This document shows, piece after piece, positions 55,211-64,000 of a DNA stretch of 64,000 nucleotides (the first letter of the stretch is position 1; each line of letters begins with the position of its first letter). This DNA comes from Pseudobdellovibrionaceae bacterium (GTDB lineage Bacteria; Bdellovibrionota; Bdellovibrionia; Bdellovibrionales; Bdellovibrionaceae). The stretch lies in the NCBI GenBank assembly GCA_021731025.1, contig JAKFYD010000056.1, positions 1 through 64,000 of the forward strand, read 5' to 3'. The notes under the pieces were generated by a model. The model worked only from the letters and a program-made list of their open reading frames with translations. It ran no database searches and was not told the DNA's origin. A program made the position numbers and the translations under genes.

Positions 55211-55609
55211 TTAATCTTTTTCAATTTCGTTTAAAAGTTTGTTCGCGAAATCCAAAGCAGAACCCTGAAATCCTTCGCTAGCTAGTTGTGCGAAGCCCAC
55301 TTGAACATTCGCATCTCCATTGTAAATATTAACTCTAGCTGCATCTGATGAGGCTAACAAAATTTGTTGAGCTCCCTGGGCGCCTTGCTCTAAAATATTT
55401 TTGCGAGCTACAGCGGCAGAGACATCTGTTGTTGCATCAGAAAATCTTGAAGTTGAGCCGATGCCACAAATGGTTGTCGCCGCTGAGGTTTGGAAGGGGC
55501 CGTCAGTCATGAACGGATTTTTGCAATACTCTAAAGGTTTGTACTCTTCAGCAGAGGTGTTGAATGAAAGCAAGCTTCCAAACAGCATTAATGCGGTCAA
55601 TTTTTTCAT
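55211..55609 (-). CDS. Small secreted protein sharing the C-terminal module of 55650
   Basis: 132 residues. Signal peptide MKKLTALMLFGSLLSFNTSA. After a Cys-containing middle (LEYCKNPFMTDGPFQTSAAT, TICGIG), the last 63 residues (from ARKNILEQGAQGAQQILLAS) match the last 63 of the large neighbour; I count 34 identities of 63 without gaps. The module has no family name I know. Its neighbour shares the export route, so the module may be a sorting or docking tag. Confidence 0.7.
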   Translation of the reverse strand: MKKLTALMLFGSLLSFNTSAEEYKPLEYCKNPFMTDGPFQTSAATTICGIGSTSRFSDATTDVSAAVARKNILEQGAQGAQQILLASSDAARVNIYNGDANVQVGFAQLASEGFQGSALDFANKLLNEIEKD

Positions 55610-55649: not shown

Positions 55650-57947
55650 CTATTTAGCTTCACTTAAAACTTTCTTTGCAAAATCAAAACTGGTTCCTTT
55701 AAAGCCTTCGCTACTCAGCAGATCAAAGGCTTTTTGAACATTGACATCTTGGTTGTAGATTTTAGTTCTTTCATCTTCTGATAATGCCAACAGAATTTTC
55801 AATGACCCGTCGGCAGCTGGAATCAGGATATTTTTACGAGCGATTGTTGAAATATCTCTTAATAGACGTAAATTCTCTCTGTCGGTTTCAAATTGCACAA
55901 CTTCATCACCAGTGACTTCTTCTAACAGATCCAAAATCTGAAGCTCAAAAGACGAAGCTGATTTTTTCTTTTCAACTTTGATGTCCGTTTGTAGCTCGAA
56001 ACCGAGCTCAGGAATTAAAGCCGTATTTGGGCGTGTCCAGTCTTTACGCAAAGGAATGCCATAGCCAGCAGTTAATTCTGATTGGCCTTGCTGACGCAAA
56101 AGAAGGATGTGTTTAAATTTTTCGAGCTCTTTAGAAAATTTTTCGAACTCATTCGGTTTTAAATACGATGAGAAAGCTTTGGGATCGCCTCGGAACAGAT
56201 GATTATAAAATGAACCGCGATAAAAGTAAGTTTTCATGCGCTGATAGGCAAAAGCTGCAAGCTCGATCGAAATAACATTATTCAATAATCGCGTGTATTT
56301 TTTAACCGAAAGATGCTCAAACTTTTTTGCATCGTAATGATTTTTCAAAGACAAAATAAACAAGCGTCTTTGATCGGCAGAAAATTCATTGGCGTAGGTT
56401 TCCAATGTTTTCCGATCGTCGGGATCGGCTTTAGATAGATAGGTGGTAATTCCCGCGGGATCTACCGGCCGGCCATGATCATCAAAAATATTCGCGATAT
56501 CAGTTAGAGTCTCGCGAGTGTAATAGTGAATTGAGCGATGCCTTAATTCCTTATTCTCAGCATTGTCAAAAGCAAAGCCATTATCATAAAGCTCTTCACG
56601 CAAACCAACCGGAGTTGTTGCATTAACATTCTCGATATTTTCACTGCGGATGATTGCTTTAAGTAAATCTTCGGTTTCAGTACGGCAATTGTTCGTAAAG
56701 AATTTATAGGATCCCGAGTAGCCCCAGTAAATTTCAAGGACACGATTCAAAAAATCACGCTTTTCAAGCTCGGTCAAATTGAGTGGACTGCTGACTAAAT
56801 CTCGAAAGTCGAATTGATTGTATTCCGTAACAACCATGGGCATCGAAAGCAAAAACATCTCGGAAGGAAATCGTCCATAGATGCCCAAACCTTTTAAAGC
56901 ATAAGTAGCTCGATCCCAAATTGAAGCTTCGGTTTCTTTAACATCAGCTTTTCGATTTTCCGTAGGATTAGCGCGAAAGCTTACGACGACATGATGGGCC
57001 GCATCGGTTAAGCAAGCATTCGACTTTGGTTTTCCTGGAGCACAGAACACCAATCGCAGCATGCTGTGCCCAAATTTACTTTCGAAGGCGCTGCCTTTGT
57101 CGGCCAAAAGGTAATCGATGCGATAAAGACGAGTTTCATCCAAGGAAGCTTTTCGTTGCTCAAAACCTGTGACGATGACGTTGCGATCAATGGCGCAGGC
57201 TTTGTTTTTGTAAGGCTCAAACTTAATTTTTTCTTTATAATACTGATAAAGTACAGGACGCCGGCATTTGAACTCGGGATCCATAATAAAGTATTCAAGA
57301 TTAACAGCGAAAGCTTCTTTGGGGCTAGTCAATTCATACAGATCAGCACTTCGATAAGCGTGATCATTCTTTTGTGTGGCTCCTAGAATCCCGGGAGAGA
57401 AGGTCATCAGATGCATAAAACGCCGGTCAGTGGAAATCTTGCGCTCATCATCGTAAGCATGTCCTAATTCATGGATCAAGGTAGCCATCGCCAAGCGGTA
57501 TCCCGTGCGATGTCCACAGCTGTACTGATGACTTTCGGTAGGCCCTCTTAAGATTTCTGTCCACAGTAAAGAATTTAAAAGTATCTTTCGCTTGGAAAAG
57601 GGAAGTTGGCTTGTTGTCCCGGCAGTAAAAATTCTTTCTTTAAGTGAACTTTCTTCTCCGTCATTCTTTTGCTGTTTGAGGCAAGTAACATCGATTTGCG
57701 AGATGCTTTGAATTTTATTCGAAAGCGGATCAAACTCAATTTCAATATCTTCATCTTGCAAAACATTTTTGAAAGATTCAGGAAGGACACTTTGGGTCTG
57801 CCCGATGAAATTCTTGTATTGCATCTGTTCCCAGGAATTGGAACCTGCGCGTATCAATTTCAATGGAATGTTTGCAGCTGTCGCCATGTTTCCAAGGACA
57901 ACCAGCAAACCTGCCAAAATAAAATTGATCTGCGCTTTCTTGATCAT
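55650..57947 (-). CDS. Exported HELGH metalloprotease/DUF4105-like protein
   Basis: 765 residues from ATG 57947; signal peptide MIKKAQINFILAGLLVVLGN then MATAA. A zinc motif HELGHAYDDE lies about residue 158. The middle has SKFGHSMLRLVFC, HHVVVSFRANP and FFTNNCRTETEDL (about 415-425), matching the His and the N-x-C of DUF4105-type papain-like domains. Ends with the ARKNIL...SEAK module shared with 55211-55609. DUF4105 proteins include some implicated in lipoprotein N-acylation; whether this one acts on lipoproteins is inference. Confidence 0.7.
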   Translation of the reverse strand: MIKKAQINFILAGLLVVLGNMATAANIPLKLIRAGSNSWEQMQYKNFIGQTQSVLPESFKNVLQDEDIEIEFDPLSNKIQSISQIDVTCLKQQKNDGEESSLKERIFTAGTTSQLPFSKRKILLNSLLWTEILRGPTESHQYSCGHRTGYRLAMATLIHELGHAYDDERKISTDRRFMHLMTFSPGILGATQKNDHAYRSADLYELTSPKEAFAVNLEYFIMDPEFKCRRPVLYQYYKEKIKFEPYKNKACAIDRNVIVTGFEQRKASLDETRLYRIDYLLADKGSAFESKFGHSMLRLVFCAPGKPKSNACLTDAAHHVVVSFRANPTENRKADVKETEASIWDRATYALKGLGIYGRFPSEMFLLSMPMVVTEYNQFDFRDLVSSPLNLTELEKRDFLNRVLEIYWGYSGSYKFFTNNCRTETEDLLKAIIRSENIENVNATTPVGLREELYDNGFAFDNAENKELRHRSIHYYTRETLTDIANIFDDHGRPVDPAGITTYLSKADPDDRKTLETYANEFSADQRRLFILSLKNHYDAKKFEHLSVKKYTRLLNNVISIELAAFAYQRMKTYFYRGSFYNHLFRGDPKAFSSYLKPNEFEKFSKELEKFKHILLLRQQGQSELTAGYGIPLRKDWTRPNTALIPELGFELQTDIKVEKKKSASSFELQILDLLEEVTGDEVVQFETDRENLRLLRDISTIARKNILIPAADGSLKILLALSEDERTKIYNQDVNVQKAFDLLSSEGFKGTSFDFAKKVLSEAK

Positions 57948-58093
57948 AAGAATTACTGACCTTCTTTCGGAGAGTATCAATAAACGACCTGTCTCGCCCT
58001 TTGATGCGATAAACGTTCCGTCTTAATTCTTTTATAGGGTGTTTAGTAAATGGGCTCTTGTGCAACTTTTTGACAGCTGACAAAATTAGAAGC

Positions 58094-60496: not shown

Positions 60497-61021
60497 CTAC
60501 TGACCGACGCTTTGTCTTAAGAAAAAACTCATATAGTGGCGCACCAGATTCGAGGACTGAAATGCTTTCCCTTGGTAAGTCCAAATGACTTCATTGAAGG
60601 GGCCCAATTGAGCTTCTAAAACTGTTTCATCCATAACATTGGTTGCTGATGACGAGGTATTTTCAAGAGGACCCGGAGAAACCAAATTTCCGCCGATAAA
60701 GTTCATGCGAATAGAAATCACTCCGGGAGCTTTGATGGTGAAAAGCATTTTATAACCATTGCGGAACAACATGAAATCCGCGTGAGTGTGAGCCACTCCG
60801 TAAACTTTCACTCGGCCCAAAGGCGAAGTTTTAAGTTCGTTGAAAATATTTGCAGCATCGTAGAATTCGATTTTTAAATTCAAAAGGAATTGTAAACTTT
60901 CGATGGCTAAAACGCGCTGTTGATCATCGTGGGGACTTAAATCGATAATGCCAGTATCTTCTACTTTTTGTTCAGAGCTAACAAGCGCCTTGATCCAATC
61001 GACCTTTTCCATTTTTTCCAC
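60497..61021 (-). CDS. Cytoplasmic protein, unknown
   Basis: 174 residues, GTG start (ATG at 61012 is an alternative). No signal peptide. Segments RVKVYGVAHTHADFMLFRNG and KMLFTIKAPGVISIRMNFIG are strand-rich. GGGGGATCT precedes the GTG. I do not recognise it. Confidence 0.55.
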   Translation of the reverse strand: MEKMEKVDWIKALVSSEQKVEDTGIIDLSPHDDQQRVLAIESLQFLLNLKIEFYDAANIFNELKTSPLGRVKVYGVAHTHADFMLFRNGYKMLFTIKAPGVISIRMNFIGGNLVSPGPLENTSSSATNVMDETVLEAQLGPFNEVIWTYQGKAFQSSNLVRHYMSFFLRQSVGQ

Positions 61022-61198: not shown

Positions 61199-64000
61199 TT
61201 ATAAACCTCCGCCCAGTTGCAGAGTCATTCCGAGCTGAGCGCCGCTTCCGTACATACCACCGACGGGATTGTAAAGCCCAAGCACAAATGTCAGGGGAAG
61301 AACATAACCTACTGTGGTTTCTAATCGCACCTCGGCGCCGACACTCCAAAAGGACCTGTTAGTGATAACCACTGGGTCAAAAGGATCAATGGTGGGATCT
61401 TCATAGGAAGGATTGTAGGCGTGTCCATCCAAAGCGACGCCGTCGACGACGAAAGCCCCATGAAGTCGACGCAAGAAAATAGGATTAGTTCCAGAGCCAT
61501 AATAAACATCGCGAATGGGAAAACGGTATTCAATATTGGTATTCACGAGAGTGCGACCCAAAAATTGACCGTTCAGATAGCCGCGCATGACGTAACTGGG
61601 ATTGATGCTATCTTGATAAGGCATCAGTGAAGTGGTCGAGACACCCAAGATCGAAGAAATTTTTTGTGGCGTATAAACACCGTTCAGTTTAAGGGCCAAT
61701 GCATGTCGCGCCGGCAACCATTTTGAAAAGTAATAATTTCCACCACCAAAAAATTGCGAGTGACCCACATAGCCGCGGCTTTCGATGTAATTCACGGCGC
61801 TCAGATAGGCGCTAGTTCCAGTTTCTGGAGAGATTTCTGTTCCTGACATCGAGAAATTCGAATACGACAAGGACAGAGCAGGACCAGTCCGTTTAATTTT
61901 GCTGTTAGAACTAAATTCAGTGTTCAGATAGCGCCACGACAGCATTCCCGTCGTGTAACGATTAAAGCTCCAAAGATCTGGCGATATTCCGACCACAGCC
62001 CCCGAATTTGTCAAAGGGTTGCTTCCAGAGACTAAATAAGTGCTTGTTTGGTAAGCTTGCAGAAGATAGCTGTTCGAAGTCATATTGTTGATGTAAGTGC
62101 CCTCAAAAGACCCTTTATTCACGGCGCTGTCCCAAGAGGCTGCCAACTGATACATGTTTTTCTTTAACGGATCAAAGCCTGAAGTCATAGCTTGAATGAC
62201 AACCCCGTTGCTGCTGGTTGAGCTTGCAAAAAACGGAATCCAGTAATGAGGCCACAGGTGTGAAGCTGACGAGTATTCACTGACAGGAAAATTCTCGGGC
62301 TGAGCTGCTGCAGCTGGTTTCAGTTTTACAGGATATCTTTCGGCTGCGAGGGGATGGATGACAGGAAGCGAAGTTTTTGGAGCAACTTGATCTTTCTTTT
62401 CCAAGAGAACAACCGCTGGTCCATCAACGGTGATTTCCGTTGCGTACAAATCTTTTTTTTCAGGATCATAAGCCGGAGCCATGAGTGAAGTTAAGGTGTG
62501 ACTCACAGGGCGAGCCTCACGGAAGTCTTTTGAGGTCACGTAAATGTTGTGAGTGCCATTCCAAGAAGAAGTGAAATAAACTTCATTGGCTGTGACTAAA
62601 GGGAAACGAGAGTCTGGGTACTTCGCTAAGACGGGCTGCCAACTTTTCGATTTGAGATCCACCATAAAAAGATGTTCTTGGCCTTCGGAATTTCTTGATG
62701 AAATTAAGAGTCGAGATTCATCTAAAAAAACAGGAATCGAAAAGCGTTCACCGATCTGAGAGTGCCGAATGATCTCATATTTTTTTGTTTGCATGTTCAG
62801 CACGGCTAAGCTTGTTTTCGCAGCTGATAACTTGATAAAGGCAATCAAATTCCCTGAAGGAGATACGGCAGGCTCTCGGGCTCGCAAAGCGCGGGTCAGT
62901 TGAGTCGTTTTATCCGTGGTTAAATTGTAAATGTGCAGATCGGAAAATGTTTCCGTCGAGTTCACGGCATCAATGCGATCATAAATGATTCTTGCGGAAT
63001 CAGGGAACCAACTGATTCTTTGGATGCTTCCAGTGGGCGGGCCATCTAAGAGTTTTGTTGGAGCGGTTGGTTCGCTTAAAGTTTCAACAGCTCCCCAAGG
63101 TTTTGCGGAAAGAAAATTTGCTCCGGGTTGGCGCTCGTAGATTTTAACTAAGCGTCTATCAGTGTCGCTGACGGTGATCATCGCCAAAAATTTTCCGTTA
63201 GGGCTGATGGTCGCTCCCCCAGAAGTTTGGGTTCCTGTAGGAAATTTTTGGGTCGGAGTTGGTTTCAATGTACGCAAAGTAAAAATTTGTTCCAGGGCTT
63301 TGTCCTGAACCCAATGCAAGGTCACATCATAAAGATCTTCGTAAGAAAGTCCTAGGTGTTCCTTCGCTGGTGTCTCAATAAAATAAGGAACGCGTCGAGC
63401 ATGTCGTTGATTGAGATCGTCCGCGATTCTGGAACCTTTTTCTGCGGTCATCTGGCTCCATGCTAAGGAGCCAAAGATGTAAGAGCGCATGCCTTCAGGC
63501 CAAGTGGGGATCACTTCATTGATCTCAGCAATGTTGAAATCCATTAAATTTTCTTTCAGAACGAAAGAGCGCAAAATCGAATCCTGATAGATGGATCGCA
63601 AGCGGCCCTTTGAGCCAATCGCGGTTTCAATGTGAACAGCTAGACCTTCCTTCCACCAATTTGGTAAAAGCAAATTGGGAGCAACGATAGAGCCGAAGAC
63701 AGGCCGAATGTAGCTCATGACTCCCAAGGCAGGTTCAAAATTTAAAACGTGAGTGTATTCATGGGAAAGAAGTTCAAGATTCCAATCTCCAAACTCGCCC
63801 AAGCTTTCTGTAGGCCCCGGCAATACAGGGAAAATCATGATGTGAGAATAGGGGATTCGAGTTGCATAACCATTAGTCACATCGGTTTTGTCATTGATGA
63901 TAACGATGGTTTTTTCGGGAAGGGTCGAGAAGAATTCTTTCAGCAGGCCGAAGGAGGTTTCTAGCTTCTGGGCATAGTACTGACCCAGAGCCTGCTGCTT
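61199..64000 (-). CDS. Metalloprotease-like/beta-propeller/Omp85-like barrel protein (5' end beyond window)
   Basis: At least 933 residues; the frame is open to base 64000. First part: LLSHEYTHVLNFEPALGVMS and NWWKEGLAVHIETAIG, an HExxH plus EGLA zinc peptidase-like pair of the gluzincin/peptidase-MA kind. The middle (about 200-500 of the visible part) is a TolB/PD40-type propeller: SPNGKFLAMITVSDTDRRLV, ARAREPAVSPSGNLIAFIKL-like blades, SWFPDSARIIYDR. The end is a barrel: YVMRGYLNGQFLGRTLVNTN holds an RGY motif and VDGVALDGHAYNP and SVGAEVRLETTVGYVLPLTF follow, as in BamA/TamA barrels. Outer membrane location expected. Confidence 0.8.
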   Translation of the reverse strand, partial: KQQALGQYYAQKLETSFGLLKEFFSTLPEKTIVIINDKTDVTNGYATRIPYSHIMIFPVLPGPTESLGEFGDWNLELLSHEYTHVLNFEPALGVMSYIRPVFGSIVAPNLLLPNWWKEGLAVHIETAIGSKGRLRSIYQDSILRSFVLKENLMDFNIAEINEVIPTWPEGMRSYIFGSLAWSQMTAEKGSRIADDLNQRHARRVPYFIETPAKEHLGLSYEDLYDVTLHWVQDKALEQIFTLRTLKPTPTQKFPTGTQTSGGATISPNGKFLAMITVSDTDRRLVKIYERQPGANFLSAKPWGAVETLSEPTAPTKLLDGPPTGSIQRISWFPDSARIIYDRIDAVNSTETFSDLHIYNLTTDKTTQLTRALRAREPAVSPSGNLIAFIKLSAAKTSLAVLNMQTKKYEIIRHSQIGERFSIPVFLDESRLLISSRNSEGQEHLFMVDLKSKSWQPVLAKYPDSRFPLVTANEVYFTSSWNGTHNIYVTSKDFREARPVSHTLTSLMAPAYDPEKKDLYATEITVDGPAVVLLEKKDQVAPKTSLPVIHPLAAERYPVKLKPAAAAQPENFPVSEYSSASHLWPHYWIPFFASSTSSNGVVIQAMTSGFDPLKKNMYQLAASWDSAVNKGSFEGTYINNMTSNSYLLQAYQTSTYLVSGSNPLTNSGAVVGISPDLWSFNRYTTGMLSWRYLNTEFSSNSKIKRTGPALSLSYSNFSMSGTEISPETGTSAYLSAVNYIESRGYVGHSQFFGGGNYYFSKWLPARHALALKLNGVYTPQKISSILGVSTTSLMPYQDSINPSYVMRGYLNGQFLGRTLVNTNIEYRFPIRDVYYGSGTNPIFLRRLHGAFVVDGVALDGHAYNPSYEDPTIDPFDPVVITNRSFWSVGAEVRLETTVGYVLPLTFVLGLYNPVGGMYGSGAQLGMTLQLGGGL

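Follow-up and report, generated by a model that had tools for sequence, protein, structure and literature searches.

We describe here a gene of a Bdellovibrionota genome whose product, as judged from a confident structure model, is a single outer-membrane protein in which a zinc-peptidase domain and a TolB-like beta-propeller precede a 16-strand Omp85 barrel. The window, i.e., the whole stretch of DNA that was analysed, consists of bases 1-64000 (64,000 nucleotides) of contig 12, to which upstream DNA from the same genome was added. The open frame on the minus strand at 61199-64000, in which an original prediction had recognised HEYTH, EGLA, a propeller and a barrel with RGY, is real, and the upstream DNA has supplied its N-terminus. 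The full gene occupies contig positions 61199-64144 (minus strand), extends 144 bases beyond the end of the window and encodes a protein of 981 amino acids with an ATG start at 64144 and the signal peptide MQIFWSLSKKNFTLPLLFFSFFVHAAEV. Residue numbers below are those of the full-length protein (the number in the window protein plus 48). The features are as follows:

61199..64000, minus strand: in-window portion of the gene, with the stop at 61199; codes for residues 49-981 of 981
63269..64000, minus strand: predicted gluzincin-type peptidase domain; the full domain spans approximately residues 27-292, its first strand lying outside the window
63749..63763, minus strand: HEYTH, residues 128-132, two predicted zinc-ligand His and the general-base Glu; H, E and H invariant
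63638..63652, minus strand: KEGLA, residues 165-169, Glu166 being the predicted third zinc ligand; E and G invariant
63479..63481, minus strand: Tyr222, candidate transition-state residue, conserved in 59/59
62381..63253, minus strand: TolB-type six-bladed beta-propeller, approximately residues 298-588, with the invariant Arg421
61214..62239, minus strand: 16-strand Omp85-type outer-membrane barrel, residues 636-977, from DSSP of the model
61577..61585, minus strand: RGY, residues 854-856, lying between strands 11 and 12 in the loop where Omp85 proteins have their loop-6 motif
60497..61021, minus strand: 174-aa downstream neighbour, a possible partner, found near the gene at most Bdellovibrionales loci

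Direct sequence searches of the PDB with the full protein, and also with the barrel alone, gave no matches, and the assignment of the domains therefore needed profiles and structure. The AlphaFold model, computed from the 933 in-window residues and 58 homologues, has a pLDDT of 91.9 and a pTM of 0.91, and its order of domains, a mostly helical domain followed by the propeller and then by 16 barrel strands, bears out the proposal that one protein combines a peptidase-like domain, a propeller and an Omp85-like barrel.

In the models the helical domain has the gluzincin (clan MA) peptidase fold, with a family that is not clearly assigned. The corresponding domain of the Bdellovibrio bacteriovorus orthologue, modelled separately (pLDDT 90.8, pTM 0.90), was matched by Foldseek to M1 aminopeptidases, the M30 enzyme lugdulysin and clostridial M9 collagenases (E ~1e-5, query TM ~0.5), and the Pfam matches of the peptidase domain are weak and spread across M9, Peptidase_MA_2 and M48. 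The gluzincin pattern, HExxH with a downstream Glu in an EG motif, is present in 59 of 59 aligned homologues from Bdellovibrionota, Bacteroidota, Balneolota, Geobacteraceae, Myxococcota, Gemmatimonadota, vibrios and Cyanobacteriota-related lineages, and H128, E129, H132, E166, G167, Y222 and G225 are invariant among them. Invariance of the H, E and H and of E166 is partly built in, because HExxH and W-x-E were among the patterns that seeded the alignment; Y222 and G225, which were not among the search patterns, are equally invariant, and order-level relatives that came from a whole-protein search, and were not chosen by motif, keep the active-site motifs in 21 of 21 aligned rows. From the gluzincin pattern we infer that Glu166 is the third zinc ligand, and the domain is predicted to bind zinc and to act as a peptidase. 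The earlier suggestion of an M1-like peptidase with a third zinc ligand thus agrees with the Foldseek matches to M1 and with the Glu166 that all 59 homologues share. Within the Bdellovibrionota the mean identity is 43% for the peptidase, 29% for the propeller and 31% for the barrel, so that conservation is highest in the peptidase, which would be expected were catalysis the property that is retained. That this region might be the N-terminal domain of TolB was considered and ruled out (hhalign probability 0.5%).

The relationship of the propeller to TolB is evident at several levels. The family profile matches the sequences of TolB crystal structures at 2e-25, hhalign pairs the propeller with the TolB of the same genome (99.3%, E 3e-20), and TolB is the nearest structure to the propeller in Foldseek (5e-9). 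Arg421, the propeller residue that is invariant in 59/59 rows, lies in a loop that hhalign places opposite the one carrying the Pal-contact residue Thr292 in TolB; the position aligned to Thr292 itself is not conserved as Thr in the family, and the residue pair of the Escherichia coli TolB-Pal contact is also absent from the TolB of the same genome. On this alignment, the placement of Arg421 at a Pal-contact loop is only a lead. The whole protein scores 39.6 bits against the TolB model TIGR02800, below the cut-off of 343 bits, and the idea that it stands in for a missing TolB is ruled out by a canonical and intact tolQRAB, including a full TolB, on contig 22. A TolB-like propeller also appears by eye in a 971-aa protein on contig 29 of genome G000 (L041:1032-3947), where it is followed by an M28-like aminopeptidase and a PDZ-like end.

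The C-terminal barrel had been predicted to be of the Omp85 type, and it has exactly 16 strands in the model; Foldseek matches it to BamA (4k3c, 1.9e-7) and to Sam50 (5.5e-7). In Omp85 proteins, e.g., BamA, an RGY motif lies between strands 11 and 12, and here the loop of 36 residues between those strands holds an RGY that is well conserved (R in 58/59, G in 56/59 and Y in 55/59). Evidence for an Omp85 barrel at the level of sequence is modest: hhalign pairs the barrel with the BamA of the same genome at E 3e-4, and the Pfam Omp85 model matches five of 32 diverse members (best 2.9e-7) but not the 981-aa protein. The secondary structure of the model contains no POTRA-like element, and a POTRA domain is not obligatory in all Omp85 subfamilies. 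Two contrary outcomes, a C-terminal part other than a 16-strand barrel and a pocket lacking a third zinc ligand, were looked for, and neither came true.

Matches were found in 57 of 60 near relatives, and relatives in 182 of the 192 Bdellovibrionota genomes, with partial coverage of the protein in some of the weaker cases. The family is also present in 59 of 99 Bacteroidota genomes (E 1e-60) and in Geobacteraceae, Myxococcales, vibrios and others; a search of plasmid records with a Vibrio relative gave no match. On the tree the Bdellovibrionota rows form one clade together with a few evidently mislabelled bins, such as one titled Streptomyces griseus that holds the Bdellovibrionota version of the locus (L051), and since the rows there make one clade the gene is read as old and vertically inherited in this phylum. 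Related genomes also encode paralogues of ~906-950 aa (L136, L137, L138 and L139), two of which have HEYRH and EGDA, with a barrel-like end carrying SRGYDYE, and two of which have the altered motifs HESAH/HETAH and EGN; a changed active site in some distant paralogues suggests that the scaffold can be used without the exact motif. In one Bdellovibrio genome (G126, contig 1; L141 and L142) the gene is in two pieces, the peptidase part lying 624 kb from the rest. A natural split was rejected as a likely assembly artefact, since the second piece begins at a poly-G run with a stop codon and has no signal peptide.

On its upstream side the gene borders on a block with pal and cpoB. A pal gene, whose product clears the NCBIfam cut-off for Pal, starts 106 bases upstream on the opposite strand and is followed by a gene for a small DUF4398-like lipoprotein, by a cpoB-like gene two beyond pal, and by tsaD, ksgA and smpB, the last three being identified by eye from their sequences. 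The small lipoprotein (e.g., L002:4786-5088, plus strand) is conserved between pal and cpoB. The cpoB of this block in B. bacteriovorus is of the Bd0635 type, a gene that has been reported to be probably essential and to encode a product that accumulates in the invasion vesicle; a literature search on the other HD100 locus tags returned nothing. The 174-aa downstream neighbour has no Pfam or NCBIfam match. At 52 of 57 Bdellovibrionota loci pal is in the divergent position, and of the five remaining loci three (L071, L079 and L089) are neighbours on the tree. Five loci have lost tsaD, ksgA and smpB while retaining pal-cpoB, and at further loci the gap to tsaD is enlarged; most such loci are close kin, and they therefore represent few independent rearrangements. 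At all loci examined outside the Bdellovibrionota clade, pal is absent from the side of the gene. The adjacency to pal and cpoB is suggestive of shared function, and it could also reflect a stable block that has simply been inherited vertically, tsaD, ksgA and smpB often being retained as well.

Elsewhere in the window, also on the minus strand, 55650-57980 encodes a secreted protein of 776 aa with DUF7844 and Lnb_N domains and an HELGH motif, and just downstream of it 55211-55609 encodes a small secreted protein of 132 aa, the end of which resembles the last ~50 residues of the 776-aa protein.

A literature search found no experiments on any member of the family, and several readings of its role can be compared. 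An even number of barrel strands leaves both chain ends in the periplasm, and the N-terminal domains would be periplasmic because the barrel has 16 strands. We regard it as moderately probable that the protein is an outer-membrane-anchored periplasmic zinc peptidase, its activity being putative, that acts in envelope maintenance in a Tol-Pal context. Sec export would deliver the protein to the outer membrane, where the Omp85-type barrel would serve as anchor and the propeller and peptidase would hang in the periplasm. Most likely the propeller would recruit a protein as partner or substrate, be it Pal, a different lipoprotein or an outer-membrane protein that is being assembled, and the recruited protein would then be cut by the peptidase in envelope processing or quality control; the identity of the substrate and the link with Pal are guesses. 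The strand parity, the Tol-Pal neighbourhood, hosts far outside the predators and the precedent of PlpD, whose enzyme domain was thought to be secreted and has been shown to be periplasmic (PMC11116518), are what favour envelope upkeep. The same considerations leave unsupported the proposal that the peptidase-propeller part passes the outer membrane by means of the barrel and acts outside on prey or matrix. Predators are numerous among the Bdellovibrionota, and FhaC and similar Omp85/TpsB proteins do translocate partners, but the 16 strands put the N-terminus in the periplasm, PlpD, formerly called a type Vd secretor, holds its enzyme domain there, and the family, common in Bacteroidota and present in Geobacteraceae, vibrios and others, has many hosts that are not known predators; we consider such display very unlikely.

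Somewhat less remote, if still doubtful, is a TolB-like handling of Pal, in which the propeller would bind Pal, the barrel would fix or store it at the outer membrane and the peptidase would be secondary or regulatory. The TolB type of the propeller, the divergent pal, the loop of Arg421 and the proposal in PMC12204202 that barrel proteins of this kind gave rise to TolB all speak for this reading; the canonical tolQRAB with its full TolB, the dissimilarity of the N-terminal domain to that of TolB, the lack of a conserved Thr at the position aligned with Thr292 and the absence of a neighbouring pal at the loci examined in other phyla speak against it. An insertase or assembly factor, in which a single polypeptide would unite BamA, BamB and a protease of its own, would fit the Omp85 type of the barrel and the idea of a BamA-BamB fusion put forward in PMC4104836, but the model shows no POTRA domain and the genome encodes its own BamA and two more Omp85 proteins, which makes this role quite improbable. 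Returning to the anchored peptidase, one extension of it is speculative and rather unlikely, namely that the OMP-TolB-like proteins, which have been proposed as forerunners of TolB, are zinc peptidases anchored in the outer membrane and working with Pal and CpoB, TolB being the propeller minus the enzyme and the anchor. Were it true, a proteolytic step would have belonged to the early link between outer membrane and wall.

The combination of metalloprotease, propeller and barrel had been put forward as a new layout, and in this respect the original prediction does not stand, since propeller-Omp85 fusions are already described in two papers. The WD40-Omp85 group, defined in 2014 by Heinz and Lithgow (PMC4104836) and likened there to a BamA-BamB fusion, has a propeller N-terminal to an Omp85-type barrel, lacks POTRA domains and has a propeller closest to TolB. 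That paper mentions no zinc peptidase for these proteins; the domain carried by its "Metallo" group, PF00149, is unrelated. The OMP-TolB-like proteins, described in 2025 with the Bdellovibrionales exemplar A0A1F3SUA3 and proposed as ancestors of TolB (PMC12204202), likewise have a barrel, a TolB-like six-bladed propeller, an adjacent N-terminal domain and a wide spread. The 981-aa protein has the layout, propeller N-terminal to Omp85-type barrel, that defines these groups; its family is likely to be the WD40-Omp85 group, and A0A1F3SUA3 likely belongs to it. The adjacent domain is given as a Rossmann fold in PMC12204202, whereas here it models as a gluzincin with an invariant predicted zinc site and is unlike TolB-N. 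The text of that paper uses "peptidase" once, in another sense, and "zinc" is absent from it; no mention of the pal-cpoB neighbourhood was found in the accessible part. In the open-access literature we found no paper that joins peptidase, propeller and barrel or notes the zinc site. The predicted zinc peptidase and the pal-cpoB context, neither of which was found described there, are thus the useful additions. Present in nearly all Bdellovibrionota and frequent in Bacteroidota, the family has an intact predicted zinc-peptidase site unmentioned in the literature found. This provides the uncharacterised WD40-Omp85 / OMP-TolB-like proteins with an enzymatic activity that can be tested and corrects how their N-terminal domain is likely to be read, and the proximity to pal and cpoB is relevant to the origin of TolB and of the Tol-Pal system. 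TolB itself shares the six-bladed propeller, with clear sequence similarity, but has neither barrel nor peptidase and occurs as a separate canonical protein in the same genome. PlpD, a patatin-like Omp85 protein, also has an enzyme domain N-terminal to its barrel, in its case a phospholipase with one POTRA domain in place of a peptidase with a propeller. A possible working analogue is BepA, an M48 enzyme of outer-membrane protein quality control, which is likewise a periplasmic zinc peptidase at the outer membrane but is built from a TPR domain and an M48 fold, without a barrel.
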